Shown here piece by piece: positions 11,501 to 35,091 of a stretch of 64,000 bases of DNA; the first letter of the stretch is position 1; the number at the start of each line of letters is the position of its first letter. The notes beneath the pieces are model-generated. The model saw only the letters and a list, made by a program, of their open reading frames with translations, was not told the DNA's origin and searched no databases. The stretch lies in contig NZ_CP054690.1 in assembly GCF_013348805.1 (NCBI RefSeq), positions 4,278,001 to 4,342,000 on the forward strand, read 5' to 3'. This DNA is from Rhodococcus sp. W8901. Lineage in GTDB: Bacteria; Actinomycetota; Actinomycetes; Mycobacteriales; Mycobacteriaceae. A program made the position numbers and the translations under genes.

Positions 11501-11803
11501 TTACTTCGCGACGACAGCCAGAACGTCGCGAGCCGACAGGATCAGGTACTCCTGGCCGGCGTACTTGATCTCGGTTCCGCCGTACTTGCTGTAGATGACG
11601 GTGTCGCCTTCCTGGACGTCCAGGGGGATGCGCTTCTCGCCATCCTCGTCCCAGCGGCCGGGACCAACAGCGACGACGGTGCCCTCCTGGGGCTTCTCCT
11701 TCGCCGTGTCGGGGATGACCAGGCCGGAGGCAGTCGTCGTCTCGGCCTCGTTGGCCTGGACGAGGATCTTGTCCTCGAGCGGCTTGATGTTCACGCTCGC
11801 CAC
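11501..11803 (-). CDS. groES: Co-chaperonin GroES
   Basis: A 100-residue protein with the typical start [20 protein letters not shown] and the mobile loop region around [20 protein letters not shown]. Seven copies cap the GroEL ring. First gene of the groES-groEL1 operon, with a CIRCE operator about 130 bases upstream. The ribosome site GGAGGG precedes ATG 11803. Confidence 0.97.
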
Positions 11804-11930
11804 GATGAGCCCTCCACTTTCAGGGGTTTGTCGGGCCCGAGGCTGTTCCTCGGACCACCATCAATTCAGTCACCACAGTGACTCTTCACGCGCCCCGTCG
11901 TCGCGGGTGCCGGGACTCGCTCAGTGTCGA

Positions 11931-11957
11931 CTAGCACTCTATACATGAGAGTGCCAG
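11931..11957 (-). promoter_or_regulatory. CIRCE operator for HrcA, upstream of groES
   Basis: CTAGCACTC (11931-11939), nine bases, then GAGTGCCAG (11949-11957). The CIRCE consensus is TTAGCACTC-N9-GAGTGCTAA, so seven to eight of nine bases match in each arm. A further half-site AGCACTC occurs at 11956-11962. HrcA repression of groESL is expected, relieved by heat shock. Confidence 0.9.
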
Positions 11958-12048
11958 CACTCAAGGGTGGCGTCCGCTCGAGCGCACTGACCCGAACGCA
12001 GACGTGGCGCCGGAGCGAGTGCTCCGGCGCCACCTCCAGCGAACGAAT

Positions 12049-12483
12049 TCAGTACTGCGACGGCGTCTCCAGGACGGCCATCGTGCATCGCGAGATGCAC
12101 ACGAGCTTGCCCTCGTCGTTCACGATCTTGATCTCCCACACGTGCGTCTTGCGGCCCAATGCCAGCGGCGTCGCCTTGCCGTGCACCCAGCCCGAGCTCA
12201 CGGGTCGGACGTGGTTGGCGTTGATCTCCATACCGACGCAATGGAACTTGCTGCGATCCACCGCGAAGATCGACGCCCAGCTGGCGAGGGTCTCGGCGAG
12301 CGCGACCGAGGCGCCACCGTGCAGCACGCCCGCGGGCTGCTTGGTGCGCTCGTCGACCGGCATCCGGCCCTCGAGCGAGTTCTCGGTCAGTTCCGTCAGC
12401 TCGATGCCGAGGTTGCGGTTGAGGGTGTCGACGCCCTTCTCGTTCGCGATCTCGATGGTGGGATCGCCGATCCAGATGCTCAC
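12049..12483 (-). CDS. Hotdog-fold thioesterase (PaaI/YbgC-like)
   Basis: A 144-residue single hotdog domain. The motif PAGVLHGGASVALAETLASW at about residues 50-69 is the PaaI-type active-site region (HGG-x3-A-x3-E). Such enzymes hydrolyse acyl-CoA thioesters, often aromatic ones such as hydroxyphenylacetyl-CoA. The GTG start at 12483 overlaps the stop of the upstream oxidoreductase by four bases, showing translational coupling. With an acyl-CoA ligase in the divergent operon, a role in releasing CoA from stalled aromatic acyl-CoA is possible but unproved. Confidence 0.8.
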   Translation of the reverse strand: MSIWIGDPTIEIANEKGVDTLNRNLGIELTELTENSLEGRMPVDERTKQPAGVLHGGASVALAETLASWASIFAVDRSKFHCVGMEINANHVRPVSSGWVHGKATPLALGRKTHVWEIKIVNDEGKLVCISRCTMAVLETPSQY

Positions 12484-14447: not shown

Positions 14448-15785
14448 ATGTGTACCTCCGACGGCAACGCCGTTCCCCAGGGTTCGATCCAGAGGCCGGC
14501 CGCCCTCACCAAGTTCGTGGACGTGTCCACGATGGTGGACGGCGACAACGGCTACGTCGACCGTGCGGTCTTCACCGACCACGCGATCTACCAGCAGGAG
14601 CTGCGCCGCATCTTCGCGCCCAGCTGGCTGTTCCTGGGCCACACGTCGCAGTTCGCCAAGCCGGGCGACTTCCTCACCACCTTCATGGGTGAGGATCCGG
14701 TGATCGTGTCGATGGGCAAGGACCGCAAGATCCGCGCGTTCCTCAACTCCTGCCGCCACCGCGGCGCCCGCGTGTGCCGCGCCGACTTCGGCGCCACCAA
14801 GAACTTCACGTGCACGTACCACGGCTGGAGCTTCGACACCGCCGGCAAGCTGGTCAGCGTCCCCAACGAGGCGGGCTACCCGGAGAGCTTCGACAAGAAG
14901 GACTGGGGCCTGGTCGAGGTCGCACAGCTCGACACGTACCACGGCCTGGTCTTCGCGACGTGGAACCCCGACGCACCGCCGCTGAAGGAAGCACTCGGCG
15001 GGATGACCTACTACATGGACGCGATGCTCGACCGCGATCCCGAGGGCACGGTCGCCGTGGGCGGTATCCACAAGTGGGTGCTGGACGGCAACTGGAAGCT
15101 GGCGGCCGAGCAGTTCGCCACCGACTGGTACCACGTCAACATGTCGCACGCGTCGGCGCTGATGGTGCTCTCCCCCACCGGCCGTGGGCCGAAGGCCGAG
15201 ATCGTCAACACGCCGGGCCGCCAGTTCAGCGATCCGATGGGGCACGGCGCCGGGTTCCCGACGCATCCGCGCAGCCGCTTCGACGCTCAGCCGGTGCACG
15301 AGTACTACGACTACGACGCGCTGCGTGAGCGCCTCGGCGACGAGCGCGTCGAGGGCCCGATGACCACGGGCCACGCGACCGTCTTCCCGAACTTCTCGTA
15401 CCTGCCGGTCAACGGCAGCATCCGCGTCTGGCACCCGAAGGGCCCGGACAAGATGGAGGTCTGGGCGTGGACGATCGTCGACAAGTCCATGCCCGAGGAA
15501 GTACGTGAGGCCCAGCGCCTGTACAACCTGCGCACGTTCGGTCCCAGCGGCATCTTCGAGCAGGACGACGGAGAGAACTGGAGCGAGTGCCAGGCCATCG
15601 CGGGCGGCTTCATCACCAACAGTGTGCCGCTCAACTACCAGATGGGCCTGGGCAGCGAGCGCGAGGACGGCGTCTACCCCGGCAAGACGAGCGAGCTGTA
15701 CAGCGACGCCGCCGGCCGCGGTTTCTACCGACGCTGGGCAGAACTGATGAACACACCGGCATGGCACGAAAAGGGCGCGAAGTGA
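14448..15785 (+). CDS. Aromatic ring-hydroxylating dioxygenase, large (alpha) subunit
   Basis: A 445-residue Rieske oxygenase alpha subunit. The Rieske centre is C102-x-H104 and C122-x2-H125. The mononuclear iron site is visible as D226, H229 and H234 within ATDWYHVNMSH. The catalytic C-terminal domain has about the usual length. With the beta subunit, ferredoxin and reductase in the same operon this is a three-component dioxygenase that makes cis-dihydrodiols from an aromatic ring. By pathway context a phenylpropionate/cinnamate-like substrate is likely, but sequence reading does not fix it. GAAGGAAGA precedes ATG 14448. Confidence 0.92.
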   Translation: MCTSDGNAVPQGSIQRPAALTKFVDVSTMVDGDNGYVDRAVFTDHAIYQQELRRIFAPSWLFLGHTSQFAKPGDFLTTFMGEDPVIVSMGKDRKIRAFLNSCRHRGARVCRADFGATKNFTCTYHGWSFDTAGKLVSVPNEAGYPESFDKKDWGLVEVAQLDTYHGLVFATWNPDAPPLKEALGGMTYYMDAMLDRDPEGTVAVGGIHKWVLDGNWKLAAEQFATDWYHVNMSHASALMVLSPTGRGPKAEIVNTPGRQFSDPMGHGAGFPTHPRSRFDAQPVHEYYDYDALRERLGDERVEGPMTTGHATVFPNFSYLPVNGSIRVWHPKGPDKMEVWAWTIVDKSMPEEVREAQRLYNLRTFGPSGIFEQDDGENWSECQAIAGGFITNSVPLNYQMGLGSEREDGVYPGKTSELYSDAAGRGFYRRWAELMNTPAWHEKGAK

Positions 15786-16132
15786 GCGAGACCATCACCA
15801 GGATCAAGGTCGGCGCGGTCGGCGACATCGAGGACGGCGAGGCGCTGGTCGTCGACGCCGAGCAGACCGGCACCGGCGAGCCGATCGCCGTCTTCCACGA
15901 CGACGGCGAGTACTTCGCCCTGAACGACCGCTGCACCCACGGCGAGGCGTCGCTCGCCGACGGCTGGATCGAGGGCGGCCAGGTGGAATGCCCGCTGCAC
16001 TCGGGCAAGTTCTGCCTGCGCACCGGCTCGGTGCTCTCGATGCCGGCCACCGAGGACGTCGCGGCCCACAAGGTCGAGGTCACCGACGACGAGATCTGGC
16101 TCTACCCCGGCCAGAACGCAGAGGCGCAGTGA
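15782..16132 (+). CDS. Rieske-type [2Fe-2S] ferredoxin component
   Basis: A 116-residue protein with the two Rieske half motifs CTHGEASL and CPLHSGKFC. It carries electrons from the reductase to the oxygenase alpha subunit. The GTG start at 15782 overlaps the alpha-subunit stop by four bases, and its own stop overlaps the reductase start, so all three are translationally coupled. Confidence 0.92.
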   Translation: MSETITRIKVGAVGDIEDGEALVVDAEQTGTGEPIAVFHDDGEYFALNDRCTHGEASLADGWIEGGQVECPLHSGKFCLRTGSVLSMPATEDVAAHKVEVTDDEIWLYPGQNAEAQ

Positions 16133-17358
16133 GTACCCCCTCCGCAGTCGTCGTGGTCGGCGGCGGTCTGGCGGGAGTCAGCGCCGCCGGCGAACTGCGG
16201 GCCCGCGGCTTCGAGGGTGAGATCACCCTCGTCGACGGCGGACCCGCGCCGTACGACCGTCCGCCGCTGAGCAAGGCGTTCATGTTCGGTACCGCCGACG
16301 AGGCAGATCTCGCTCTCGCCAAGCCGGATTGGTATCTCGCACAGAGGGTCACGCTGCGCACCGGCGTCGCCGTGACGGCACTGAAGCCCGACGAGGGTGT
16401 GGTCGAACTGGCGGACGGCACTCGTCTGGACGCCGACGTGACGATCCTGACCACCGGCGCCGGCGCGCGTCCGTTGCCGGTGCCCGGCGGTGGCCTGCCG
16501 CAGGTCCACCTGCTGCGCACCATCGACGATGCCCGCGCACTCAAGGCCCGCCTGGTACCCGGCGCTCGCCTGGTGGTGATCGGCGCGGGCCTGATCGGTG
16601 CCGAGACCGCTTCCGCCGCACTGCAGCTCGGAGCGTCCGTCACCCTGGTCGATCCGATCGATCCCCCCATCGCCCCCGCCGTGGGCCCGGAGCTCGCGCG
16701 CTACCTCCACGACCAGCACGCCGCCAACGGCATCGACGTGCACGCGGCGGGCGTCGCCGAGATCCGCTCGACTGACGACGACAGCGTGGTCGTCGTCCTC
16801 ACGACCGGCGACGAACTCCCCGCCGACGCGGTCCTGGTGGGCATCGGCTCGATCCCGTCGACCGAACTCGCGGAAACCGCGGGCCTCGACGTCGACGGCG
16901 GTGTCCTGGTGGACGAGAACCTGCGGACGAGCCATCCCGCGGTGTACGCCGCTGGTGACGTGGCACGCCGACGCGATGCCGACGGCACACTCCATCGTCG
17001 CGAGGAGCACTGGGAGGCAGCGCAACTCAACGGACGCGCGGTGGCCGCCCGCGTCCTGGGAGAAGACCCCGAGCCCGAGTGCGCGGGGTGGTTCTGGTCC
17101 GACCGGCACGGCATCCACGTGCAGGGCGTCGGATCGATGACCGCCGAGGGCGAGACCGTGATCCGGCCGCACCCCGACGACGCCACCCGACCGCAGATGG
17201 CGTTCCGGGTCCGGGGCAACACCCTGGTCGGCGCCGCGTTCATCGACGGCGGCCCCGCCGTGCGGGCCGCGCGCATCATCATCGACCGCGCACTTCCCGT
17301 CGATCCGGCCGCGCTGGCCGACCCGACCGTGAACCTGCGCAAGCTCGCCAAAGGATGA
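16129..17358 (+). CDS. Ferredoxin reductase component (FAD, NAD(P)H)
   Basis: A 409-residue reductase of the BphA4/HcaD type. The FAD Rossmann motif is VVVGGGLAGVSAAGELRARG near the N-terminus; the NAD motif is VIGAGLIGAETASAALQLGA at about residues 149-168; the second FAD motif includes YAAGDVARR. It passes electrons from NADH to the Rieske ferredoxin encoded just upstream. GTG 16129 overlaps the preceding stop. The C-terminal domain is complete. Confidence 0.92.
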   Translation: MSTPSAVVVVGGGLAGVSAAGELRARGFEGEITLVDGGPAPYDRPPLSKAFMFGTADEADLALAKPDWYLAQRVTLRTGVAVTALKPDEGVVELADGTRLDADVTILTTGAGARPLPVPGGGLPQVHLLRTIDDARALKARLVPGARLVVIGAGLIGAETASAALQLGASVTLVDPIDPPIAPAVGPELARYLHDQHAANGIDVHAAGVAEIRSTDDDSVVVVLTTGDELPADAVLVGIGSIPSTELAETAGLDVDGGVLVDENLRTSHPAVYAAGDVARRRDADGTLHRREEHWEAAQLNGRAVAARVLGEDPEPECAGWFWSDRHGIHVQGVGSMTAEGETVIRPHPDDATRPQMAFRVRGNTLVGAAFIDGGPAVRAARIIIDRALPVDPAALADPTVNLRKLAKG

Positions 17359-17365
17359 CTGACTC

Positions 17366-17938
17366 ATGGCAACCGACACCACCCAGCCGACCACGCAGCG
17401 CCCCACCGCCGACGCCGACACCCACTTCCGGGTGCAGCAGCTGTACTTCCACGAAGCAGAGCTGATCGACGACGGCCGGTTCACCGACTGGCTCGACCTG
17501 CTGGCGGAGGACCTGCACTACTGGGCTCCCACCCGCACCAACCGCCTGCGGCGCCAGCAGTCGCTCGCGGTCGCCGCGCGCGGTGAGGCCGCATTCTTCG
17601 ACGAGACCCGCGCCAGCCTGGCGTGGCGCATCCGCCGCTTCGACTCCGGCATGGCGTGGGCGGAGGATCCGCCGTCGCGCACCCGGCACCTGGTGAGCAA
17701 CGTCGTGGTCCGCCACGCCGACGAGGACGAGCGCGAGATCGGCCAATGGCACGTCCGCTCGAACTTCCTCGTCTACCGCAACCGTCTCGAACGCGAGGTC
17801 GACATCTACTCGGGCGGACGCGAGGACATCCTCCGCGAGAACCCCGACGGCCCTCCCGGCTCGCTGCTCGTCGCCCGCCGCACGATCCTGCTCGACCAGA
17901 ACGTGTTGCTGGCCAAGAACATCAGCACCTTCTTCTGA
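17366..17938 (+). CDS. Aromatic ring-hydroxylating dioxygenase, small (beta) subunit
   Basis: A 190-residue protein of the SnoaL/NTF2-like beta-subunit family, with the usual features YFHEAELIDDGRFTDWLDLL near the N-terminus, RTRHLVSNVVV in the middle and a C-terminal ISTFF. It forms an alpha3-beta3 complex with the Rieske subunit. It lies seven bases after the reductase gene. The order alpha, ferredoxin, reductase, beta is unusual, as beta commonly follows alpha. Confidence 0.9.
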   Translation: MATDTTQPTTQRPTADADTHFRVQQLYFHEAELIDDGRFTDWLDLLAEDLHYWAPTRTNRLRRQQSLAVAARGEAAFFDETRASLAWRIRRFDSGMAWAEDPPSRTRHLVSNVVVRHADEDEREIGQWHVRSNFLVYRNRLEREVDIYSGGREDILRENPDGPPGSLLVARRTILLDQNVLLAKNISTFF

Positions 17939-18002
17939 TCGCGCCACGGCGACGATCCCCTCCCGACACCGACTCTTCCCAGACACAGGAGCGCGTGAAA
18001 CA

Positions 18003-18884
18003 GTGACAACGAATGCAGCGGCGGAGACAGCCCTGAGCACCCGCGAGGTCGAAACCTCGCTGGGCACCATCAAGGTGAGCGAGGCCGGCAGTGGCCCCGT
18101 CCTGGTGATGCTGCACGGCGGCGGCCCGGGCGCGTCGGCGATCGCCAACTACAGCCAGAACCTGCCGGCACTGACGCCGCACTTCCGCGTTGTCCTGCCG
18201 GACCAGCCGGGCTTCGGCGGCAGCTACCGCCCCACCGACGAGGACCTGCACGAGCGCAGCATCACGCAGATCACCGTCGACGCACTGATCCAGACCCTCG
18301 ATGCGATGGGCATCGAGAAGTTCCATCTCATGGGCAACAGCCTCGGCGGCGCCGCCGCGATCGCGCTCGCGCTCGCCGTCCCCGAGCGGGTGACCCGTCT
18401 GGTGCTGATGGCGCCGGGCGGCGGCTGGCTGCCGTTCGGCCCGACGCCGACCGAGGGCCAGAAGGCCATGTTCCGCTACTACAACGGCGGCGGCCCGAGC
18501 GTGAAGAAGATGAAGGACTTCGTCCGCACGATGGTCGCCGATCCCAAGCAGTTCGACGACGCGAACATCGAGGCCCGCTACGAGGCGTCGCTCGACGAGA
18601 GCCACATCGAGTTCTACCACCGCTACAACGCCGCGTTCGCCCGCCGCCACGGCATGGATCCGCTGTGGCGCAACGCCCACAAGATCAAGGCTCCGACGCT
18701 GCTGCTGTGGGGCACCGAGGACCGCACCATCACGTTCGAGGGCTCGCAGCTGATGCTCAAGCAGATCCCCGACGTGCAGTTGCACGCGTTCAGCAAGTGC
18801 GGCCACTGGGTCCAGGTCGAGCGTCAGAAGGAGTTCGAGCGGCTCGTGGCCGACTTCCTGGCGGACTGTTCGGGGGACGCATGA
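18003..18884 (+). CDS. Meta-cleavage product (C-C bond) hydrolase, MhpC/HsaD-like
   Basis: A 293-residue alpha/beta hydrolase with the signature oxyanion-hole stretch MLHGGGPGASAIANYSQNLP and the nucleophile elbow GNSLGG (Ser). The acid is in LLLWGTEDRTITF and the base in KCGHWVQVE. This form is typical of enzymes that cleave carbon-carbon bonds of 2-hydroxy-6-oxo-dienoates made by extradiol ring fission. It is 64 bases after the beta subunit, with a GTG start, and overlaps the SDR gene by four bases. The matching ring-cleavage enzyme is not in this operon. Confidence 0.9.
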   Translation: MTTNAAAETALSTREVETSLGTIKVSEAGSGPVLVMLHGGGPGASAIANYSQNLPALTPHFRVVLPDQPGFGGSYRPTDEDLHERSITQITVDALIQTLDAMGIEKFHLMGNSLGGAAAIALALAVPERVTRLVLMAPGGGWLPFGPTPTEGQKAMFRYYNGGGPSVKKMKDFVRTMVADPKQFDDANIEARYEASLDESHIEFYHRYNAAFARRHGMDPLWRNAHKIKAPTLLLWGTEDRTITFEGSQLMLKQIPDVQLHAFSKCGHWVQVERQKEFERLVADFLADCSGDA

Positions 18885-19717
18885 CCGGGTGGCTCGAGGG
18901 CAACGTCGCCCTCATCACCGGCGGAGGCTCCGGGCTGGGCCGGGCGATCGCCGAGCGCTTCCTCGCCGAGGGTGCCTCCGTCGTGGTCGCCGACCGTGAC
19001 ACCGCCAAGCTGGACGACCTGATCGAGTCGGTCGGCGATCTCGCCGACCGGGTGCACACCGTCGAGGCCGACGTCCGGTCCACCACCGACCAGCATCGCG
19101 CGGTCACCGAGGCCGTCGCGCGCTTCGGTAAACTCGACACCCTGGTGCCGAACGCGGGTATCTGGGACTACCAGCGCAGCATCACCCGGCTGGACGGCGA
19201 CGCGTTGTCCGCGGCATTCGACGAGCTGTTCGCCATCAACGTCAAGGGCTATCTGCTGGCCGTCGAGGCGGGGTGGCGTGAGCTGGTCAAGACCCGCGGC
19301 AGCGTCGTGATGACGCTGTCGAACTCGGCCTTCTATCCGAACGGAGGCGGACCGCTGTACACCGCGAGCAAGCACGCCTGCCGCGGACTCGTGCTCGAAC
19401 TGGCGTACGAGCTGGCTCCCAAGGTTCGCGTCAACGGTGTCGCTGCCGGCGGCATGCGCACCGACCTGCGCGGCCCCGAGTCGATCGGACTGGCCGACCG
19501 TTCCATCGAGGCGTCGTTCGCGCGCGGCACCACGACGGGTGACAACCCGCTCCTGCCGCTGCACGACGCGAGTGTCGAACCTGCCGATTTCACGGCGCCG
19601 TACGTGCTGCTGGCCTCCGCGGCCAACAGTTCCAACATCACCGGTGCGATCATTCCCGTCGACGGCGGCATCGCCGCTCGCGGATTCCGCACCGCAGCGG
19701 GCGGAGACGATCTGTGA
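18881..19717 (+). CDS. SDR oxidoreductase, probable cis-dihydrodiol dehydrogenase (HcaB/BphB-like)
   Basis: A 278-residue short-chain dehydrogenase. The cofactor motif is ITGGGSGLGRAIAERF at about residues 12-27; VPNAG is the NNAG-equivalent; the catalytic Ser and Y-x3-K lie in LSNSAFYPNGG and YTASKHA. Within a Rieske dioxygenase operon this type rearomatises the cis-dihydrodiol to a catechol with NAD+. The glycine-rich LYTASKHACRGLVLELAYEL stretch matches dihydrodiol dehydrogenases. Stop and start codons overlap with both neighbours. Confidence 0.88.
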   Translation: MTGWLEGNVALITGGGSGLGRAIAERFLAEGASVVVADRDTAKLDDLIESVGDLADRVHTVEADVRSTTDQHRAVTEAVARFGKLDTLVPNAGIWDYQRSITRLDGDALSAAFDELFAINVKGYLLAVEAGWRELVKTRGSVVMTLSNSAFYPNGGGPLYTASKHACRGLVLELAYELAPKVRVNGVAAGGMRTDLRGPESIGLADRSIEASFARGTTTGDNPLLPLHDASVEPADFTAPYVLLASAANSSNITGAIIPVDGGIAARGFRTAAGGDDL

Positions 19718-21315
19718 GCACCGACAAGACCCCTGTGAACATCAGCCCCGCCCGCGCACTGCAGTCGCTGGGCCGACTGCACGGCGCCAACACCGCCCTC
19801 ATCTACGAGGGCCAGGAGCTGAACTACCGCGAGCTCACCGCGCGCGTGCACTCGGCGGCGCTGGCGCTGCACGCGACGGGCGTCCGCAAGGGCGACCGGG
19901 TGGGCTACCTCGGCCTCAACAGCCCGACCTTCCTCGTGAGCTACCTCGCGTCGGCGTGGGTTGGCGCGGTCTTCGTGCCGGTCAACTTCCGGCTCGCTTC
20001 CGCCGAAATCGCCTACCAGCTGGGCGATTTCGGACCGCGCGTGCTGGTCGTCGAGCCCGGCCACATGCCGCTGGTCGACGAGATCGACCCGGCGGTGCTT
20101 CCGCCGCGGCTCATCGCGGTCGACAACGACGACGCGGTGCCGCTGACCGACGAGCCGTCCGAGCGCTGGGAGAAGCTGACAGCCGCACTTGCACGGGGCG
20201 CGGCACTCGAGGTGGAACTCACCCCGCTCCCCCGCTTCGCGGACGACCTGGCCGCGCTGATGTACACGTCGGGTACGACCGGCCGCCCCAAGGGCGTCAT
20301 GCTCACGCACGGCAACATCTGGTGGAACTCGTTCAACGTGGACTCCGTGGTGGACACCAACCGCCGCGACGTGAACCTCGCGGTGGCGCCGCTGTTCCAC
20401 ATCGGGTGCCTCAACTCGTTCACGCTGCGCAGCCTCGCCCGCGGCGGTGCGACGCTGGTGCGCCGCACGTTCGACCCGGCCCGCACGCTCGCCGACCTGG
20501 TGGAGTACAAGATCAACACGATCTTCGCGGTGCCGGCCATGTTCTCGGCGATCGCCCAGTTGCCGCACTTCGCGGACGCGGACCTCTCGCACCTGCGCTC
20601 GGCGATCGTTGCCGGCGCGCCGGTGCCGCCCAGCCTGGTCAAGGAATACGGCCACCACGGTGTCGCGCTGCAGCAGGCGTGGGGCCTGACCGAGACGGCG
20701 CCGTTCGCGACGTCACTGCCGCCCGAGCGCACGCTCGAGCGGGCGTCGTCGGCGGGTCTGCCGATGCCGTTCACGGAGATCAAGATCGTCGATCCGGTGA
20801 CCGGTGCAACGCTCACCGAGCCCAACGCGGCCGGCGAGATCTGCGTGCGCGGACCGAACGTCACCCCGGGCTACTGGGCCAACCAGAAGGCCACGGACGC
20901 GGCGTTCGATGCCGAGAACTGGTTCCACTCGGGTGACCTCGGCTGCCTCGACGAGGAGGGATTCCTCTACATCGTCGACCGGATCAAGGACATGGTCATC
21001 ACGGGCGGCGAGAACGTCTACCCGGCCGAGGTCGAACGGGTGCTCGTCGAGTACCCGGGCGTGACCGACGCGGCCGTCGTCGGCGCCCCGGACCCCAAGT
21101 GGGGCGAGATCGTCGTCGCGGTCCTCGTCGTGTCGACCGACACCGATCCGACGCTCGAGGAGATCCGCGAGTTCACCAGCGAGCGCCTCGCGCGGTACAA
21201 GCTCCCCAAGGAGCTGCTGGTGCTGGACTCGCTGCCGCGCAACGGATCCGGAAAGCTCGACAAGGTCTCGCTGCGCAAGCTGGCCGCCGACGGCCACGGC
21301 TCGCTGAGCCGATGA
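19714..21315 (+). CDS. AMP-forming acyl-CoA synthetase (long-chain/aromatic acid CoA ligase family)
   Basis: A 533-residue ANL-superfamily enzyme. The ATP-binding motif is YTSGTTGRPKGVM; the adenylation core includes QQAWGLTETAPF and LGCLDEEGFLYIVDRIKDM; the catalytic lysine region near the end is LPRNGSGKLDK. It makes an acyl-CoA from a carboxylic acid and ATP. Its presence in the dioxygenase operon suggests that the substrate or a side-chain product is activated to a CoA thioester, for example cinnamate or phenylpropionate. The substrate is inference. GTG 19714 overlaps the SDR stop. Confidence 0.88.
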   Translation: MSTDKTPVNISPARALQSLGRLHGANTALIYEGQELNYRELTARVHSAALALHATGVRKGDRVGYLGLNSPTFLVSYLASAWVGAVFVPVNFRLASAEIAYQLGDFGPRVLVVEPGHMPLVDEIDPAVLPPRLIAVDNDDAVPLTDEPSERWEKLTAALARGAALEVELTPLPRFADDLAALMYTSGTTGRPKGVMLTHGNIWWNSFNVDSVVDTNRRDVNLAVAPLFHIGCLNSFTLRSLARGGATLVRRTFDPARTLADLVEYKINTIFAVPAMFSAIAQLPHFADADLSHLRSAIVAGAPVPPSLVKEYGHHGVALQQAWGLTETAPFATSLPPERTLERASSAGLPMPFTEIKIVDPVTGATLTEPNAAGEICVRGPNVTPGYWANQKATDAAFDAENWFHSGDLGCLDEEGFLYIVDRIKDMVITGGENVYPAEVERVLVEYPGVTDAAVVGAPDPKWGEIVVAVLVVSTDTDPTLEEIREFTSERLARYKLPKELLVLDSLPRNGSGKLDKVSLRKLAADGHGSLSR

Positions 21316-24654: not shown

Positions 24655-25452
24655 ATGGCAGGTACTCCCCGGGAAGCCGGCCGAACCACAGCATCGCGCG
24701 TGCTCGCAATCCTGGAGGTATTCGGGGAGGATCCTGGCCCACACGCGTTGAGCACCATCGCGGCCGCGACGAGCATGCCGCTGACGACGGTTCATCGCCT
24801 GGTCGGCGAACTCGAGCAGTGGGGCGCACTGCTGCGCGGACCCGACGGCCGCTACCAGATCGGCATCCGGCTGTGGGAAATCGGTCAGAACGCCGGGCTC
24901 CGGCTCCGCGACATCGTCCATCCGCCGCTCCAGGACCTCTTCGATCTCACCCACGAGACCGTTCACTTCGTGGTGCGCCGCGGTACCGAAGTGATCTACG
25001 TCGATCGCATCTACGGAAGCAGACGCGTCCCCCGACTGGCGCGCGTCGGCAGCCGACTCCCCCTGCACCCGACCGCTGTCGGCAAGGTGCTCCTGGCATA
25101 CCAGGACCCGTGGTTCAGGGAGACGTACCTGGCCCACACTCTCGAGCGTCGCTCGAGATTCACGATCACCGAACCGGCGCGGCTCGCGCGCGAACTCGAC
25201 ACCATCCGTGAACAGGGCTACGCGAGGACCCAGGAGGAGATGGCCCTCGGGTCCTGTTCGGTGGCGATACCGGTCCGCGCGCCGAACGACGAAGTCGTCG
25301 CAGCGATCGGAATCGTGCTCCCGAGCAGCCGATCGGCCGACATTGCGCGCTTCCTTCCCCCACTCCGCGGCACCGGCGCGCGGCTGGAGAAGGTCTTCAA
25401 GGCTTTGCCGCAGCCCGTTGAACAGGCAATACGAACCTTCTGGCTCGGTTGA
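24655..25452 (+). CDS. IclR-family transcriptional regulator of the phosphophenol operon
   Basis: A 265-residue regulator. The N-terminal winged helix (residues about 10-70) contains TASRVLAILEVFGED and IAAATSMPLTTVHRLVGELE. The effector domain follows, with DPWFRETYLAHTLE and the usual C-terminal IPVRAPNDEVVAAIGIVLPS. It is in the same direction as, and 76 bases upstream of, the catabolic operon, so it likely controls it and possibly itself. The effector is probably a phenolic or a pathway intermediate (inference). GGAAGG precedes ATG 24655. Confidence 0.9.
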   Translation: MAGTPREAGRTTASRVLAILEVFGEDPGPHALSTIAAATSMPLTTVHRLVGELEQWGALLRGPDGRYQIGIRLWEIGQNAGLRLRDIVHPPLQDLFDLTHETVHFVVRRGTEVIYVDRIYGSRRVPRLARVGSRLPLHPTAVGKVLLAYQDPWFRETYLAHTLERRSRFTITEPARLARELDTIREQGYARTQEEMALGSCSVAIPVRAPNDEVVAAIGIVLPSSRSADIARFLPPLRGTGARLEKVFKALPQPVEQAIRTFWLG

Positions 25453-25528: not shown

Positions 25529-26296
25529 ATGGAGACCGCCACCACACGGCACCGAGGCGACGCTGACGACACCGGCCTCCTCGGCAGGGACATCCGGGCT
25601 CTCGTTCCGGCGACCGGTGACGTTCCGCACCTGATCGACATGGACCCGCCTCAGGATCGCATCTGGCGGCGCGCTGCTCCGTACCTACGGGTACGGGACA
25701 ACGACGCCCACACCCTGTATGCCTTCGGCATCGCCCGCGCGCTACTCGACCAGGTACCGGGGGCGCGGCCCGAGATCGTGCTGCCGGCGATCCTGCTCCA
25801 CGACGTCGGGTGGTCGACGGTCCCGGAGGAACTGGTGCTGGAGGCGATCGCGCCACGGCCGCGGCACCCGGAACTGGTCCGCGTCCACGAGATCGAGGGC
25901 GCCGCGATCGCGCGGTCGATCCTCGGCGACCTCGGCACACCCGACACCGACATCGACGAGATCGCCGCAATCATCGACGGTCACGACAGCCGCCGCGAGG
26001 CCACAAGCCCCAGCGACGCGGTCGTCAAGGATGCCGACAAGCTCTGGCGGATCACACCGCACGGACTGGCCACCGTCGGCCGATGGTTCGGGCTCGCCCA
26101 GTCCGAGACGCTCCGACTCGTGGGGTCCCGAACCCACGCCCACCTGTGCACCGAACCGGCCCGAGTGATGGCTCGCGCGTTCGCCGCGATCGCGTCGACC
26201 GACGTGTCACCGCAGCTTCGCGAACTGTCTTCCGCCGCAACGAATACCTCAGACACCGCGCTCTACGAGCACCCGACACCCCGATTCCAGGAGTGA
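25529..26296 (+). CDS. HD-domain phosphohydrolase 1 (CreD-like)
   Basis: A 255-residue protein with the metal-binding pattern of HD hydrolases: H61, H91-D92 (ILLHDVGW), H120, H152-D153 (IIDGHDSR) and D168/D170 (VKDADKLW). In the C. glutamicum cre pathway an HD-type phosphohydrolase (CreD) removes phosphate from the oxidised aryl phosphate; the same role is proposed. AAGGAGG precedes ATG 25529, a very strong ribosome site, and the stop is two bases from the P450-fusion start. A second, distantly related HD gene lies at 33.0 kb in the same operon. Confidence 0.8.
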   Translation: METATTRHRGDADDTGLLGRDIRALVPATGDVPHLIDMDPPQDRIWRRAAPYLRVRDNDAHTLYAFGIARALLDQVPGARPEIVLPAILLHDVGWSTVPEELVLEAIAPRPRHPELVRVHEIEGAAIARSILGDLGTPDTDIDEIAAIIDGHDSRREATSPSDAVVKDADKLWRITPHGLATVGRWFGLAQSETLRLVGSRTHAHLCTEPARVMARAFAAIASTDVSPQLRELSSAATNTSDTALYEHPTPRFQE

Positions 26297-26298
26297 AC

Positions 26299-28698
26299 AT
26301 GTCCGCGCCGACACAGAAGACGACCGACACCGTCTCCACGGGTGGTTGCCCCGTCGCCCACCATGGCTACGAACCGTTCGACATGAACGATCCGTTCTCG
26401 GCCTACGCCCGACTCCGCTCGGCGGAACCCGTCATGTTCGACGAGCGGATCGACTGCTGGGTGGTCACCCGCTACGAGGACATCAAGGCCGTCTTCGACA
26501 ACTGGGAGGTCTTCAGCAGCGAGAACGCCCAGGCACCGGTGCGTGAACGGGGGCCGCAGGCCAAGCAGATCATGAACGACGGCGGGTTCACCGCCTACTC
26601 CGGACTGTCCGCCCGGAGGCCGCCGGAGCACACCCGCATCCGCAAGGCGACCTCGAAGGCGTTCACTCCACGCCGCTACAAGGCACTCGAGCCGTTCGTC
26701 CGCGCGAATGTCGATCAGCAACTGCGGGCCCTGCTCGCGCACGAGGACCGCCGCGGTGACCTGCTGCGCGACCTCGCCTACGACGTGCCGACCGTGACGA
26801 TCCTGACACTGATCGGCGCCGACACGAGCCAGGTCGACCAGTACAAGCGCTGGTCCGACTCCCGCGCCGCGATGACGTGGGGCAATCTGAGCGACGAGCA
26901 GCAGATTCCGCACGCGCACAACCTGGTCGAGTATTGGCAGGAGTGCCGGCGACTGGTCGCCCACGCCCACGAGCACGGTGGGGACAACCTCGTCGCCGAC
27001 CTGGTGCGCGCCCAGCAAGAGGGCACCGAGATCACCGACCACGAGATCGCGTCGGTCTGCTACAGCCTGCTGTTCGCCGGGCACGAGACGACCACGACAC
27101 TGATCTCCAATACGCTGCGACTGCTCCTGGCCCACAGGGAGCAGTGGGCGGCGCTACGGGACGATCCGAAGAAGATCCCGAAGGCCGTCGAGGAGGTGCT
27201 GCGCTTCTCCCCCTCGATCGTCGCGTGGCGCCGAAAGGCACTCGAGGACACGATGATCGGCGAAACGGCCATTCCCGCCGGGGCGAACGTCCTGCTCGTG
27301 ATGGGCTCCGCCAACAGGGACGAGTCGTACTTCGCCGATCCCGAGACGTTCGACATCACTCGGGACAATGCGCGCGAGCACCTCGCCTTCGGCTTCGGCC
27401 TGCACTACTGCCTGGGCAACATGCTCGCCAAGCTCCAGACCCGCGTCGTCGTCGAGGAGGTACTGAAAACAGCGCCGTTCCTCGAACTCGTAGATCCCGA
27501 CGCGATCACGTTCGGCGAGAACCTGTCGTTCCGGGCCCCGACGTCGGTACCGGTACGGTGGGACGCACTCGGCGAGAGCGGGGCCGACACCGACGGCACC
27601 ACCGAGACCGCGTCGGCACGGTACATCCAGTTCTTCGACAGCCCGCGGGAACCGCAGCACGATCAGTTGGGCGGCAAGTGCGCGTCGCTGGTGTCGCTGA
27701 CGGCGGCCGGCATGCCGGTGCCACCCGGCTTCGCACTCACCACGACGCTGTACGACGATTTCATCGCGACGGCCGGAATCGCCGACGAGATCCGTGAGCT
27801 GCTCGCCGGCCTCGATCCCGAGGACGTCACCCGCGTGGATGATATCTCCATCCGGATCAGGGACGCGATCACCTCGCGCCCGGTCCCGGAGCCGCTGCGG
27901 CGCTTGACGATCGACGCATACGAGCGCCTGCAGTCACGATTCGAGCACCCCGTGCCGGTGGCTGTGCGGTCGTCGGCGACCGCGGAGGATCTGCCCGACG
28001 CCAGCTTCGCCGGCCAGCAGGACACCTACCTGTGGCTCAACGGGGTCGACGAGGTACTCGAGCACATCCGGCACTGCTGGGCATCGCTCTACACCAGTCG
28101 CGCGATCACGTACCGGCTGAAGAACAACATCCCCGACGCTGGACTCTCGATGGCCGTGGCGGTCCAGAAGATGGTCAGTGCCAGGGTCGCCGGCGTCGCG
28201 ATGACGATGGACCCCACCAACGGGGACCGCTCGAAGATCACCGTCGACGCGTCGTACGGTGTCGGCGAGATGGTGGTCTCCGGTCAGGTCACCCCGGACA
28301 ACATCGTGCTCGACAAGGTGATGCTGACCGTGGTGTCCGAGACGATCGGCGACAAACACGCCGAACTGGTTCCCGATCCCGTCTCCCACCGCCTCGTCGA
28401 GCGTGAGGTCGACGCCGACCGCCGCGCCTGCCGGAGCCTGAGCGACGAGGAACTGAAGGCCGTCGCCGCGATCGCCAAACGCGCCGAGAAGCACTACGGA
28501 TGCCCGCAGGACATCGAGTGGGCACTCGACGCCGACCTCCCGGACGGCGAGAACCTCCTGCTGCTGCAGTCCCGCCCCGAAACCGTGTGGTCTGCAAAAC
28601 CCGCTCAGGACAAGGCAACCGAGACCACCAAGCCTGCTCGACGGAGCTTCGACATGAGCTCGATCAGCCGAGCAATGACCAAGCCGCGCTCCGCCTGA
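26299..28698 (+). CDS. Cytochrome P450 fused to a PEP-synthase-type ATP-binding domain
   Basis: A 799-residue fusion. Residues 1 to about 425 are a complete P450: I-helix A260-G-H-E-T-T265, E299-x2-R302, and heme loop FGFGLHYCLG with the axial ligand C371. After a short Gly/Asp/Thr-rich linker (about 425-445) comes the nucleotide-binding domain of PEP synthase/PPDK: LGGKCASL at 457-464, VPPGF at 474-478, VRSSATAEDLPD from 556 and QSRPETVW at 757-764. There is no stop or ribosome site between the parts. In C. glutamicum the P450 (CreJ) and the phosphorylating subunits (CreH, CreI) are separate. Likely role: ATP-driven phosphorylation of an alkylphenol together with the next gene product, and P450 oxidation of the alkyl group. 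The fusion would let the phosphorylated substrate pass directly. Confidence 0.9.
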   Translation: MSAPTQKTTDTVSTGGCPVAHHGYEPFDMNDPFSAYARLRSAEPVMFDERIDCWVVTRYEDIKAVFDNWEVFSSENAQAPVRERGPQAKQIMNDGGFTAYSGLSARRPPEHTRIRKATSKAFTPRRYKALEPFVRANVDQQLRALLAHEDRRGDLLRDLAYDVPTVTILTLIGADTSQVDQYKRWSDSRAAMTWGNLSDEQQIPHAHNLVEYWQECRRLVAHAHEHGGDNLVADLVRAQQEGTEITDHEIASVCYSLLFAGHETTTTLISNTLRLLLAHREQWAALRDDPKKIPKAVEEVLRFSPSIVAWRRKALEDTMIGETAIPAGANVLLVMGSANRDESYFADPETFDITRDNAREHLAFGFGLHYCLGNMLAKLQTRVVVEEVLKTAPFLELVDPDAITFGENLSFRAPTSVPVRWDALGESGADTDGTTETASARYIQFFDSPREPQHDQLGGKCASLVSLTAAGMPVPPGFALTTTLYDDFIATAGIADEIRELLAGLDPEDVTRVDDISIRIRDAITSRPVPEPLRRLTIDAYERLQSRFEHPVPVAVRSSATAEDLPDASFAGQQDTYLWLNGVDEVLEHIRHCWASLYTSRAITYRLKNNIPDAGLSMAVAVQKMVSARVAGVAMTMDPTNGDRSKITVDASYGVGEMVVSGQVTPDNIVLDKVMLTVVSETIGDKHAELVPDPVSHRLVEREVDADRRACRSLSDEELKAVAAIAKRAEKHYGCPQDIEWALDADLPDGENLLLLQSRPETVWSAKPAQDKATETTKPARRSFDMSSISRAMTKPRSA

Positions 28699-30582: not shown

Positions 30583-31320
30583 ATGCGAACCGTTCTGATC
30601 ACCGGTGGCGCAGGAGGACTCGGCCGCGCATTCGCGGAAGGATTCGCCGACCGCGGCTACCGGGTGGCCGTCGCCGACATCGACGCCGAGGGCGCCGAGG
30701 AGACGGCGAGACAGCTCCGCGAGCGCGGGGCCGAGGCGCTGTCGACGGCGGTGGACGTGACCTCGGTGGAATCCACCGACGCGATGGCGACCGCGGTCGC
30801 CGAGTTCGGGGGCGGCCACATCGACGTCCTCGTCAACAACGCCGCGATCTACGCCGGCGTGACCCGGTCAGCTTTCGAGGAGATCGACCCGGGCGAATGG
30901 GATCGCGTCATGGCGGTGAACCTGAAGGGGCCATGGATGTGTGCGCGGGCCTGCAGCCCGCACCTGGCAGAGGGCGGATCTGTCGTGAACCTCTCCTCCG
31001 CAACGATTCTCAGCGGATCGGCGAATTGGATGCACTACGTCGCATCGAAGGGTGGCGTGGTCGCTCTGACCCGGGTCATGGCCAAGGAGTTGGGTTCGCG
31101 GTCGATCACCGTCAACGCGATCGCTCCCGGCTTCACCCTCACCGAGGCCAGTTACGGCCTGATGGAACAGGCCGAGACCTACGGTGTCGACCGCGGCGCG
31201 ATCAAGCGGGCCAGTCAGCCCGACGACATCGTCGGAGCCGCACTGTTCCTGGCCGGTCCGGACAGCAAGTACATCACCGGCCAGACACTCGTCGTCGACG
31301 GCGGCCGACAGTTCATCTAG
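30583..31320 (+). CDS. SDR alcohol dehydrogenase (CreG-like)
   Basis: A 245-residue classical short-chain dehydrogenase. The cofactor loop is TGGAGGLGRAF at residues 6-16, DVLVNNAAIY is the NNAG region, and the active site is Y152-x3-K156 with Ser in NLSSATIL. The D in VAVADIDAEG suggests NAD preference. In the cre pathway such an enzyme oxidises the hydroxybenzyl alcohol to aldehyde after dephosphorylation. It begins one base after the preceding stop. Confidence 0.85.
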   Translation: MRTVLITGGAGGLGRAFAEGFADRGYRVAVADIDAEGAEETARQLRERGAEALSTAVDVTSVESTDAMATAVAEFGGGHIDVLVNNAAIYAGVTRSAFEEIDPGEWDRVMAVNLKGPWMCARACSPHLAEGGSVVNLSSATILSGSANWMHYVASKGGVVALTRVMAKELGSRSITVNAIAPGFTLTEASYGLMEQAETYGVDRGAIKRASQPDDIVGAALFLAGPDSKYITGQTLVVDGGRQFI

Positions 31321-31331: not shown

Positions 31332-31652
31332 ATGCCCACAGTCACCTACACCGATCACGACGGCAACTCCCGCGTCGTCGAAGGCAGTGTCGGCGATTCC
31401 GTCATGGAGGTCGCGATGCGCAACGGCGTCGCCGGCATCATCGCCGAGTGCGGAGGCTCGCTGTCCTGCGCGACGTGCCATGTCTTCGTCCGGCCGGACC
31501 AGTTCGAAGACCTGTCGGCGATGGACGACATGGAAGACGAGATGCTCTACGGCACGGCGGTGGACCGCCAGGACAACTCCCGCCTGTCCTGCCAGGTCAA
31601 ACTCACGGACGGCATGAATCTGCACGTGCGCACCCCGGAAACGCAGGTGTGA
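31332..31652 (+). CDS. [2Fe-2S] adrenodoxin-type ferredoxin (CreF-like)
   Basis: A 106-residue ferredoxin with ligands C40, C46, C49 and C87 (C-x5-C-x2-C-x37-C), the arrangement of P450-linked ferredoxins. It would carry electrons from the reductase encoded two bases downstream to the P450 fusion. The ribosome site AGGAGG at 31319-31324 overlaps the SDR stop. Confidence 0.92.
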   Translation: MPTVTYTDHDGNSRVVEGSVGDSVMEVAMRNGVAGIIAECGGSLSCATCHVFVRPDQFEDLSAMDDMEDEMLYGTAVDRQDNSRLSCQVKLTDGMNLHVRTPETQV

Positions 31653-31654: not shown

Positions 31655-32962
31655 ATGGTTTCCGACGACTCCGCCGCCGGCAGCGGGCTACTCGTCATCG
31701 GGTCGAGCCAGGCCGGCGTCCAGCTGGCCGGCTCGCTCCGCGCCCTCGGGTACGCCCCGCCGATCACCCTGCTGGGCGACGAAAACCACCGCCCCTACCA
31801 GCGGCCGGCACTGTCCAAGGAGTTCCTGCAGGGTCTGGTTTCCGCCGAATCGCTGATCTTCCGCAGCGCGGAATACTGGGACGAGCACCGCATTTCGCTG
31901 GTCAAGGGTGAGCGCATCACCAGCGTCGAGCGCGGGCCCGACGGGTCGGGCGTCGCCGTCGCGGCGTCCGGCACGAGGTTCCCCTTCGATCGTCTGGCGC
32001 TGACCGTCGGTGCCCGCGCGCGAACGATCGACGTACCGGGCCACCACCTGGACGGGGTGCTGTACCTGCGCAATGCCGACGACGCCCTCGAGTTGCGCCG
32101 GCGCATGCCGGACGCCACCGACATCGTTGTCGTCGGCGGCGGGTTCATCGGGATCGAGGCGGCCGCGAGCGCCCTGAAGATGGGCAAGAGCGCTACGGTG
32201 CTCGAGGCCGGGCCGCGCCTGGTCGGCCGGGCCGTCGGGCCGGAGACGTCGGAGTATCTCCTCGAGGCACACCGCACACGCGGAATGCGAATCGAGTTGG
32301 ACGCCAAGGTTTCCCGGATCGTGGAAGCGGACGGCGCGGTGACGGGCGTCGAGTTGACCGACGGACGCGTCCTGCCCGCGCAGATCGTGCTCGTCGGCAT
32401 CGGCGTCGTGCCCAATGTCGAACTGGCGCAGTCGATGGGACTCGTCTGCAACGACGGCGTCCGCGTCGACGAGTACGCGCTGGCCTCCGACGGCACCACG
32501 GTCGCCGTGGGTGACTGCGCAAACATGCCCAACCCCGTGCCCGGCGCCGACCCGGGCGACCGGATCCGGGTCGAGAGCGTCAACAACGCCATCGAACACG
32601 CCAAGATCGCCGCCTACTCGCTCACCGGGCGCCGCACCGAATACACCAGCATTCCGTGGTTCTGGTCGAACCAGGGCGATCTGAAGCTGCAGATCGCGGG
32701 CCTGTCGACCGGATACGACACCACGGTCGTGCGCAGGGACGAGGCGAAAGGCAAGTACACGGTTCTGTACTACCGCGGCGGACGCCTCATCGCGGCCGAC
32801 TGCGTCAACAACCCGCTCGACTTCATGGCCGTGCGGGGCGCCCTAGCGAAGGGTGCCCACATCCCCGCCGATCTCGCGGCCGACCCTGCGACGGCCCTCA
32901 AGACGATCACCGCCGAGAGCGCGGACGCGCTCCCGGCTCCGACTCCATCCGAATCGAGGTAG
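31655..32962 (+). CDS. Ferredoxin reductase for the P450 system (CreE-like)
   Basis: A 435-residue FAD enzyme. FAD motif IGSSQAGVQLAGSLRALG near residue 15 (SSQAG in place of the usual GGGxAG); NAD(P) motif VVVGGGFIGIEAAASALKMG at about residues 153-172; second FAD motif VAVGDCANMPNP. It resembles rhodocoxin and putidaredoxin reductases. With the ferredoxin it completes a class I P450 electron chain. It lies two bases from the ferredoxin stop. Confidence 0.9.
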   Translation: MVSDDSAAGSGLLVIGSSQAGVQLAGSLRALGYAPPITLLGDENHRPYQRPALSKEFLQGLVSAESLIFRSAEYWDEHRISLVKGERITSVERGPDGSGVAVAASGTRFPFDRLALTVGARARTIDVPGHHLDGVLYLRNADDALELRRRMPDATDIVVVGGGFIGIEAAASALKMGKSATVLEAGPRLVGRAVGPETSEYLLEAHRTRGMRIELDAKVSRIVEADGAVTGVELTDGRVLPAQIVLVGIGVVPNVELAQSMGLVCNDGVRVDEYALASDGTTVAVGDCANMPNPVPGADPGDRIRVESVNNAIEHAKIAAYSLTGRRTEYTSIPWFWSNQGDLKLQIAGLSTGYDTTVVRRDEAKGKYTVLYYRGGRLIAADCVNNPLDFMAVRGALAKGAHIPADLAADPATALKTITAESADALPAPTPSESR

Positions 32963-32968: not shown

Positions 32969-33616
32969 ATGCGTACCCCTACCGCCCTTCCCGTCGACAC
33001 CTCGCCGATCGTCGTGGCTCCCGACGCCGACACCGACTTGGATCCGATCTGGAAGTCGGTGGTTCCCGAGTCCCGGGCCCGCGGCAACGACATCCACCTG
33101 CCCACGTCGTTCGCATACGCCGAGCGCCTGTGCGACTGCTACCCCGAGGCAGACTCGCTCATCGTCCGCGTCTCGATCCTGCTGCACGACACCGGATGGG
33201 GGCGTGTCGACGAATCACGGATCATCTCCGAAGGTTTCAGCGGCGACTGGCGCAAGGCCGCGATCCGGTACGAACACGAACGTCAGGGCTGCATCATCGC
33301 TCGCGAGGTACTGCCGCCGCTCGGCTACGACGACGAGTTCGTCGAGCGCGTCTGCGAGATCATCGACGGCCACGACACACGGCCCGACGCCAAATCCCTC
33401 GAGGACGAACTCGTGCGCGACGCCGACCGTCTGTGGCGCTTCGCTCCCGTCGGTATCGCACTTGCCTCGTCCTGGTTCGGGATGACGCCCTCGGTGTACT
33501 GCGACCGACTCGAGAGCGAGATCCTGCCCGAACTGAAAACCGAAGCCGGATACCGGATCGCCGTGGCAGACCTCGATCGGTCCCGCGCGCTGTTGAAGAC
33601 GGACGTGCTGCGATGA
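32969..33616 (+). CDS. HD-domain phosphohydrolase 2 (CreD-like)
   Basis: A 215-residue HD hydrolase with H43, H73-D74 (SILLHDTGW), H103, H135-D136 (IIDGHDTR) and D151/D153 (RDADRLWRF). The spacing and the phrases LLHD-x-GW, IIDGHD and DAD-x-LWR are shared with the HD protein that opens the operon, so the two are paralogues. They may act on different phosphorylated intermediates or form a mixed complex. ATG 32969 is six bases after the reductase stop; its own stop overlaps the aldehyde dehydrogenase start. Confidence 0.8.
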   Translation: MRTPTALPVDTSPIVVAPDADTDLDPIWKSVVPESRARGNDIHLPTSFAYAERLCDCYPEADSLIVRVSILLHDTGWGRVDESRIISEGFSGDWRKAAIRYEHERQGCIIAREVLPPLGYDDEFVERVCEIIDGHDTRPDAKSLEDELVRDADRLWRFAPVGIALASSWFGMTPSVYCDRLESEILPELKTEAGYRIAVADLDRSRALLKTDVLR

Positions 33617-35091
33617 CACGGGCCGTGCCGAGCAGGGACCGGGTCGAGCTTCCCTACACACACGTCGACGATCTCTTCGTCGACGGCACCTGGGTCACGT
33701 CCACGAGCAACGCGCGCATCGACGTCGTCGACCCGGCCACCGAGGAGGTGTGGGGTTCGGTACCGAACGCCTCCACTCGCGACGTCGATGCCGCGGTCGG
33801 CGCCGCCGACCGTGCCTTCCGCGGACCGGGGTGGTCGGATCTGCGTCCGTCCGACCGCGCGGAGTACCTGCTGCGGATCGCGGACGAGATCGAGAAGCGG
33901 GCCGAACCGATGTCGTGGACGAACACCCGAGAGAACGGCAGCCCTGTCGCCGAGACCTCGGGTAGTGCGGCGAATGCCGCCGGGATCTTCCGCTACTTCG
34001 CATCGCTGGCGTCGTATCTCGAGCGCGACGACGAGCGCCCCTACCCGAACGGGCTCGGCACGACCACCGTCTTTCGCGACCCGGTCGGCGTGTGTGTCCT
34101 CATCGCGCCCTGGAACTTCCCGATCAACCTCGTCGTCGCCAAGCTGGCGCCCGCACTCATCGCCGGCTGCACCGTCGTGATCAAGCCTGCCGAAACCACC
34201 CCTCTGTCGATCCGGTTCGTCATCGAGGCGGTCGCGGCCGCCGGCGTCCCACCCGGCATCGTGAACCTGGTGACCGGGACGGGCGCCGTCGGGGACCACC
34301 TCGTGCGCCATCCTCTGGTCCGTAAGGTTGCATTCACCGGGTCCACCCCGGTCGGCAGGAAGATCGCGGCGGCGTGCGGTGAACTACTGCGGCCGGTCAC
34401 ACTCGAACTGGGCGGCAAATCGTCGGCGATCGTGCTCGAGGATGCCGATCTGGACGCCTTCGCCCAGGTGTTGATCCGGTCCTGCATGCGCAACACGGGC
34501 CAGACCTGCTACATCTCGACCAGAATCCTCGCGCCCGCGGCGCGGTACGACGAGGTCGTCGACACCGTCACGCGCACCGTCGCCGCGGCCAAGCATGGGG
34601 ACCCCTTCGACGGCGACACCGTCTTCGGACCATCGGCGACCGAGGCGCAGTACGGGAAGGTCCTCGGGTACATCGAGGGCGCTCGTGCCGAGGGCGCCCG
34701 CCTCACCACCGGCGGTGGCCGCGCTGACACGGACCGCGGGTACTTCGTGCAGCCCACCGTCTTCGCCGATGTCACTGCGGAGATGACCATCGCCCGCGAG
34801 GAGATCTTCGGACCGGTCGTCACTGTCATGCGGTACGAGACCGTCGACGACGCCGTCGCGATCGCCAACGACACCGCGTTCGGTCTCGGCGGAATCATCT
34901 TCTCCACCAACGAGGATCGTGCCATCGAGGTGGCACGCCGGATCGACACCGGATCGGTAGGCATCAACTTCTTCGCCTCGAACCACAGTGCGCCGTTCGG
35001 AGGACGTGGAGACTCCGGCCTGGGAGTCGAGTTCGGAATCGAAGGTCTGAACGCCTACCTCACACCGCAGTCCGTCCACCACCGGCAGTAG
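33613..35091 (+). CDS. Aldehyde dehydrogenase (CreC-like)
   Basis: A 492-residue NAD(P)-dependent aldehyde dehydrogenase. Motifs: APWNFPINLV, FTGSTPVGRKI, general base E265 in LELGGKS, nucleophile C299 in NTGQTC, and EEIFGPVVTV. In the proposed pathway it converts the hydroxybenzaldehyde-type product to the acid (4-hydroxybenzoate if the substrate is p-cresol). Its start overlaps the HD stop by four bases. It is the last gene of the operon; no protocatechuate pathway genes follow. Confidence 0.92.
   Translation: MTRAVPSRDRVELPYTHVDDLFVDGTWVTSTSNARIDVVDPATEEVWGSVPNASTRDVDAAVGAADRAFRGPGWSDLRPSDRAEYLLRIADEIEKRAEPMSWTNTRENGSPVAETSGSAANAAGIFRYFASLASYLERDDERPYPNGLGTTTVFRDPVGVCVLIAPWNFPINLVVAKLAPALIAGCTVVIKPAETTPLSIRFVIEAVAAAGVPPGIVNLVTGTGAVGDHLVRHPLVRKVAFTGSTPVGRKIAAACGELLRPVTLELGGKSSAIVLEDADLDAFAQVLIRSCMRNTGQTCYISTRILAPAARYDEVVDTVTRTVAAAKHGDPFDGDTVFGPSATEAQYGKVLGYIEGARAEGARLTTGGGRADTDRGYFVQPTVFADVTAEMTIAREEIFGPVVTVMRYETVDDAVAIANDTAFGLGGIIFSTNEDRAIEVARRIDTGSVGINFFASNHSAPFGGRGDSGLGVEFGIEGLNAYLTPQSVHHRQ

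Follow-up and report, generated by a model that had tools for sequence, protein, structure and literature searches.

The window analysed here, a 64,000-nucleotide stretch of a 5.7 Mb genome that consists of one contig, contains a gene in which a cytochrome P450 is joined in frame to the ATP-binding subunit of a phenol-phosphorylating enzyme. The locus raises the questions of which pathway such a protein serves, and whether the joining of its two halves alters how they work. From gene content and order, homology, a single evolutionary origin, selection on both halves and the lack of a start codon at the junction, all read directly from the genomes, it is very probable that the surrounding genes are the Prescottella p-cresol/4-alkylphenol (cre) operon, with creJ and creI fused and with a mode of working of the kind set out below.

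The gene is a single intact frame that runs from ATG to TGA with zero internal stops and encodes 799 amino acids, a polypeptide of about 89 kDa. Pfam places both p450 (8.6e-31) and PPDK_N (2.3e-107, residues 455–775) within this one protein, the latter being a PEP-synthase-type ATP-grasp domain that lies C-terminal to the P450. An earlier note, made from the DNA letters, had described one uninterrupted 800-codon gene of this composition, and the frame and the Pfam matches confirm it; the stop or frameshift between the domains that the note had named as fatal to its reading is present neither here nor in the four other genomes with a one-frame fusion. The residues that it had listed are likewise all in place: the heme-thiolate cysteine C371, the ExxR residues E299 and R302, the I-helix acid–alcohol pair within AGHETT (residues 260–265), VRSSATAEDLPD starting at residue 556 and QSRPETVW starting at residue 757.

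No in-frame ATG, GTG or TTG is found in the window's fusion between W421 and residue 457. There is thus no sign in the window of a separate CreI start at the junction, and re-initiation of a free CreI inside this fusion was rejected. The other four fused genes examined have a GTG within the conserved end of the P450, which on sequence grounds leaves some room for a minor free-CreI product. Subunits of the CreI, HpeI and PpsB type are recognised by a PPDK_N domain with family-invariant residues on a stand-alone polypeptide; the fusion has the domain and the residues, but in the same frame as a P450.

The solved structures that best match the P450 half are 5gwe and 5xjn, both titled cytochrome P450 CREJ, and 5xjn is the complex with (4-ethylphenyl) dihydrogen phosphate. 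The P450 half aligns to both with a TM-score of 0.94 by target length, and 292 of 404 aligned residues (72%) are identical to CreJ of Corynebacterium glutamicum, in agreement with the CreJ-like character first proposed for it. Identity above 55% is the usual line for a P450 subfamily, and by this measure the P450 half falls within CYP288A. CreJ itself is given as CYP288A2 of C. glutamicum in PMC9357085. Among the columns with an identity of 98% or more across 66 non-fused P450 rows, CreJ included, the fusion keeps 134 of 137, and the three altered in the window are I134V, G322E and I368L. This identity and the family-wide conservation suggest that the P450 of the fusion would be specific for aryl phosphates.

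For the ATP half, the closest solved structure is 9goj, HpeI, with 144 of 336 residues identical, and all 90 of the near-invariant columns defined by 64 non-fused rows (HpeI included) are kept. The ATP half therefore belongs with the phenol-phosphorylating subunits, as had been supposed, and is CreI-like. The ATP rows include a Nocardioides sequence (L071) whose ATP gene does not adjoin its P450; the corresponding CreH reference holds 60 rows, the frame-broken locus L020 was excluded throughout, and rows with stops or short matches dropped out. The sole other PPDK_N protein in the genome scores above the NF005057 cut-off and just below that of TIGR01418. It is a full-length PEP synthase, which leaves the fusion as the one CreI-type subunit identified in this genome.

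The tails of CreI proteins, in the window (28597–28695) and in related loci, consist of a variable low-complexity stretch followed by a short conserved GxSITxxL-like motif at the end. The pattern [GS][ILVF][ST]xx[LMF], which was picked after the tails had been viewed, occurs in 52 of 66 CreI tails against a mean of 2.1 in shuffled tails. This motif may act as a peptide that docks onto CreH or CreJ.

The genes around the fusion (Table 1) follow the order J::I, H, G, F, E, D, C. This is the cre order of C. glutamicum, for which a table in PMC7764795 gives cg0645–cg0637 as creJ, I, H, G, F, E, D and C, encoding a P450 subunit, kinase subunits, an alcohol dehydrogenase, P450 system subunits, a phosphohydrolase and an aldehyde dehydrogenase. 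The strict order is found in 56 of 66 loci from named genomes, several of the other ten being cut by contig ends, and 58 of the 66 have an IclR gene upstream of creJ. A second HD protein of the HD1 type is also found upstream in many relatives; in the fused locus L012 the match is 35 residues long and covers its beginning alone.

Table 1. Features of the cre operon and its creJ::creI fusion in the window
Feature	Coordinates	Strand	Basis or detail
IclR-family regulator, first gene of the cluster	24655..25452	+	Pfam IclR_C, HTH_IclR
Extra HD-domain protein HD1, accessory	25529..26296	+	Pfam HD 6.9e-10
creJ::creI fusion, 799 aa	26299..28698	+	P450 ~1-421, linker 422-441, ATP-grasp 442-775, tail 776-799
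Linker codons, conserved W421 (P450 end) to conserved Y442 (ATP-grasp start)	27562..27621	+	
CreH-like phenol-binding and swivel (phosphohistidine) subunit, 604 aa	28767..30581	+	Pfam PEP-utilizers, motif
SDR dehydrogenase (CreG position)	30583..31320	+	Pfam; cre operon order
[2Fe-2S] ferredoxin (CreF position)	31332..31652	+	Pfam Fer2
Ferredoxin reductase (CreE position)	31655..32962	+	Pfam Pyr_redox_2, Reductase_C
HD-domain protein, putative phosphohydrolase (CreD position)	32969..33616	+	Pfam HD; between creE and creC positions
Aldehyde dehydrogenase (CreC position)	33613..35091	+	Pfam Aldedh 7e-158; start overlaps HD gene stop

The gene that follows the fusion had been put forward as its kinase partner. 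Its Pfam match, a score above the NCBIfam NF006150 cut-off and its swivel motif identify it as the CreH swivel subunit; the motif reads TDIGGMMSH, with methionine two before and serine just before His561, and the form published for swivel subunits is T/SxxGGxxxH (PMC12167813). It keeps 220 of 224 near-invariant CreH columns and differs in four. The ferredoxin and reductase pair, also noticed earlier, follows CreH in cre order. The HD protein further downstream is taken as the CreD phosphohydrolase by its position only, and gave one weak match in a search of solved structures. The PobA-like protein expected downstream is full-length and scores 470 bits, below its NCBIfam family cut-off of 538.7. 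A promoter and terminator scan returned nothing above chance.

By analogy with characterised homologues, from which the substrates, the order of reactions and the effect of the tether are all carried over, the C-terminal ATP-grasp domain of the fusion would charge His561 of the CreH swivel with phosphate, and CreH would hand this phosphate to the hydroxyl group of a 4-alkylphenol. With electrons from the ferredoxin and reductase of the operon, the N-terminal P450 would then hydroxylate the aryl phosphate at its alkyl group. Removal of the phosphate would fall to the HD phosphohydrolase, and the SDR and aldehyde dehydrogenase would carry the product on to 4-hydroxybenzoate. Throughout, the fusion would act as a flexible tether that holds P450 and kinase subunit together at 1:1. 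For the homologues, PMC12167813 describes a need for both kinase subunits, with phosphate loaded onto the swivel histidine by the ATP subunit and the phenol site placed by modelling on the swivel subunit; it reports no stable complex between HpeH and HpeI, and a linear rise of the rate with HpeI.

The spread of the fusion was surveyed by a scan of named genomes with two short peptide patterns, which distant CreJ genes can escape, and which yielded 66 CreJ-like loci. Together with the window and loci L011, L012, L014, L017 and L018, 72 loci were tabulated; L010, L013 and L015 duplicate L019, L020 and L072 and were left out of the count. Three of the 72 (L071–L073) have no ATP gene adjoining the P450, and in L073 the contig ends there. 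How common the P450–PPDK_N pair is, a check proposed in the earlier note, can be read from the remaining 69 adjacent creJ/creI pairs: five are fused in one frame (the window, L011, L012, L019 and L021), one is frame-broken (L020) and 63 are split, several of these being near-copies of one another, such as L018 and L058. Among the loci tabulated, the one-frame fusion is confined to the window's genome, three other genomes of the genus Prescottella and Rhodococcus tukisamuensis. Split relatives are up to 76% identical to it in the P450 half.

Wider samples, which overlap, were also scanned, with at most four candidates scored per genome. A CreJ-like P450 occurs in 5 of 14 genomes of the genus, the other nine having none at a threshold of 1e-120, and in 16 of 401 genomes of the family. 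Five of these 16 have one long, fused frame and one is a noisy genome; the other ten frames span 425–483 codons, in a comparison that covered frame lengths. In the order sample, 3 of 397 genomes have such a P450, and in the phylum sample 1 of 396, which is the window's own genome. A DNA search of plasmids matched 52 records, of which two cover at least 80% of the query, both with the operon unfused. Independent creJ–creI fusions were seen nowhere else among the 66 named loci and the 401 family, 397 order and 396 phylum genomes.

In Prescottella defluvii (L013/L020, CP121458) the genes are fused across the junction, and frame breaks affect the IclR, P450, CreH and HD genes; completeness of this genome is 79%. 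The breaks are likely to be long-read indel noise from a noisy assembly rather than decay, and the locus was not counted as fused.

Several other arrangements were observed. In Kocuria dechangensis (L026, ~9282–12230) creI and creH share one open frame, a different, second fusion (CreI::CreH); in the other Kocuria locus (L022) the two are unfused. Klenkia soli (L072) and Nocardioides sp. (L071) have CreJ-like P450s of 58–59% identity near HD and IclR genes. The former shows no kinase match in 17 kb, and the latter has a diverged creI–creH pair (44–46% identity) on the other strand, some 4–7 kb from the P450.

In a rapidly built 64-row tree (LG+G4, P450 part concatenated with ATP part), the five fused rows form one clade with an SH-aLRT of 99 and require one change, against a mean of 4.9 for shuffled labels; the tree has long branches among distant split rows, not among the fused rows, and includes L071, whose ATP gene is not beside its P450. 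Measured from the end of the creJ stop, the closest ATG or GTG of the creI frame falls at −8 to +6 bases in 52 of the 63 split loci, and creJ and creI overlap by 4 bases in 14. Since the creI start lies within a few bases of the creJ stop in most split loci, fusion would have been a small step. Very probably, as part of the explanation preferred for the operon as a whole, the two neighbouring genes, by then almost in contact, became fused in a single event, and neither half lost its function.

Among the ten pairs of the five fused genes, dN/dS is 0.09–0.23 for the P450 part and 0.09–0.24 for the ATP part; eight split control pairs (six P450, two CreI) give 0.09–0.22. Because these values are alike, both halves are, as judged from their codons, under purifying selection like that on the split enzymes. 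The linker has a dN/dS near 1, a value from 12–18 codons that proves little. Its length is 20 residues in three Prescottella, 14 in L012 and 7 in R. tukisamuensis.

A single-chain AlphaFold2 model of the fusion, built on a 72-row alignment, has a mean pLDDT of 81.5 and a pTM of 0.55, with pLDDT below 50 at the linker (424–437) and the tail (762–799). The model predicts two well-folded domains on a flexible linker with no defined interface, and gives no support for a rigid channel between them. It also has a low-confidence loop at residues 561–576, which may be the counterpart of residues 133–142 of HpeI, a loop left unmodelled in PMC12167813.

Several of these features are what would be expected if the fusion were a near-neutral read-through of two nearly touching genes, with no kinetic consequence and with equal amounts of the two proteins as its sole effect. 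We consider this slightly better than an even prospect. The closeness of the creI start to the creJ stop in split loci, the short, variable and fast-changing linker, the flexibility of the linker in the model and the ordinary dN/dS of both halves all agree with it, and equal amounts would largely be given by overlapping genes anyway. On the other side, all five intact clade members have retained the fusion despite dS values of 0.55–0.83 to the outer members. This retention is weak evidence either way, because reversal is not easy once the creI start codon is gone.

A less probable departure from the preferred reading, though one with appreciable weight, keeps the same enzyme logic and changes the substrate: the Prescottella operon would serve longer 4-alkylphenols or methoxyphenols rather than p-cresol. 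The crystal of CreJ with 4-ethylphenyl phosphate is compatible with this, as is the published selectivity of the Cre system for aliphatic C–H bonds of p- and m-alkylphenols, a range of which it oxidises (PMC9549646), and the real substrates may indeed be longer 4-alkylphenols. Nearby, at 14448–21315 and upstream of the operon, the window carries a cluster of ring-hydroxylating dioxygenase alpha and beta subunits, a reductase, an SDR and an AMP-binding CoA ligase, whose proximity would also favour another substrate, and which is perhaps another aromatic pathway. Against a change of substrate, the genes for oxidation from alcohol to acid match the cresol operon gene for gene.

On two Rhodococcus plasmids, of R. 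oxybenzonivorans and R. ruber, complete unfused cre operons (L017 and L018) have genes of the toluene-4-monooxygenase type as neighbours; the plasmids are typed mobilizable and conjugative. Enzymes of the toluene-4-monooxygenase type produce a cresol (p-cresol), and these neighbours fit a cresol substrate for the cre operon; together they are perhaps a transferable route from toluene through cresol to 4-hydroxybenzoate. R. opacus 1CP is described as degrading p-cresol by ring hydroxylation and meta-cleavage, with CreJ unnamed in the passages on this route (PMC13101518). It was set aside as an alternative here, since the source says nothing on Prescottella.

Closer to a function for the fusion itself is a hand-over of the aryl phosphate. 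The P450, tied to CreI, would sit near CreH at each recharging, which is when the aryl phosphate leaves. The lack of a stable HpeH–HpeI complex and the linear dependence on HpeI (PMC12167813) make a hand-over by encounter plausible, and the CreI::CreH fusion of Kocuria joins the two kinase subunits. The modelled fusion, however, has no defined interface, the linker is not conserved in length, near relatives keep creJ and creI as separate genes, and CreH, which carries the phenol site, is untethered. Such channelling is therefore doubtful. As to the specific advantage of the fusion, we infer that each recharging might bring the tagging enzyme beside the P450, so that the aryl phosphate would be oxidised before it leaves or is hydrolysed; this we hold to be a shade less probable still. 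A sequencing or assembly error that removed a stop or frameshift between two genes, of which the frame breaks in P. defluvii might be a reminder, has a negligible chance, and this artefact was rejected, as the fusion stands in frame in five genomes with differing linker lengths.

Among the closest known systems is that of C. glutamicum, which is like the window in both halves and in the whole order of the operon. There, as the earlier note had stated, creI (cg0644) and creJ (cg0645) are separate genes (PMC7764795), whereas the window encodes one polypeptide. Rifampin phosphotransferase (RPH) and PEP synthase share the ATP-grasp and swivel domains, but hold all kinase domains in one chain; in the window the swivel is on CreH, the next gene, and the ATP domain is on the P450. 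The self-sufficient P450s CYP116B and CYP102 likewise have an extra C-terminal catalytic domain. In those fusions this domain is an electron-transfer partner, whereas in the window it belongs to the preceding pathway step (PPDK_N, with no reductase), and ferredoxin and reductase are encoded by separate genes. We know of no P450 in the PpsAB system of Thauera. This phenylphosphate synthase likewise phosphorylates phenol with two subunits, but is anaerobic and is followed by a carboxylase, in contrast with the P450 of the window's system (PMC12167813, PMC9618137). The two-component phenolic dikinase HpeHI of Rhodococcus rhodochrous GD02 shares the logic of ATP-grasp and swivel subunits (PMC12167813); its ATP subunit is unfused, and its pathway continues by carboxylation with no P450 step as presented in PMC9618137.

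The earlier note had known of no described enzyme of this architecture, and among the matches listed from one open-access library, outside which the original descriptions of CreJ and CreHI lie, no description of a P450 and ATP-grasp chain was found. Within the literature so searched, the domain architecture P450::ATP-grasp is new, and the pathway and each domain are already known. That a P450 and a kinase subunit occur naturally fused suggests a benefit from keeping the two steps together, and the fusion and its split relatives form natural pairs for testing the effect of proximity. The Cre system has been presented as a biocatalyst for selective alkylphenol oxidation (PMC9549646). If hand-over at recharging is true, the Prescottella fusion would amount to a natural assembly for tagging and oxidising, usable as it stands as a chassis for the oxidation of alkylphenols.
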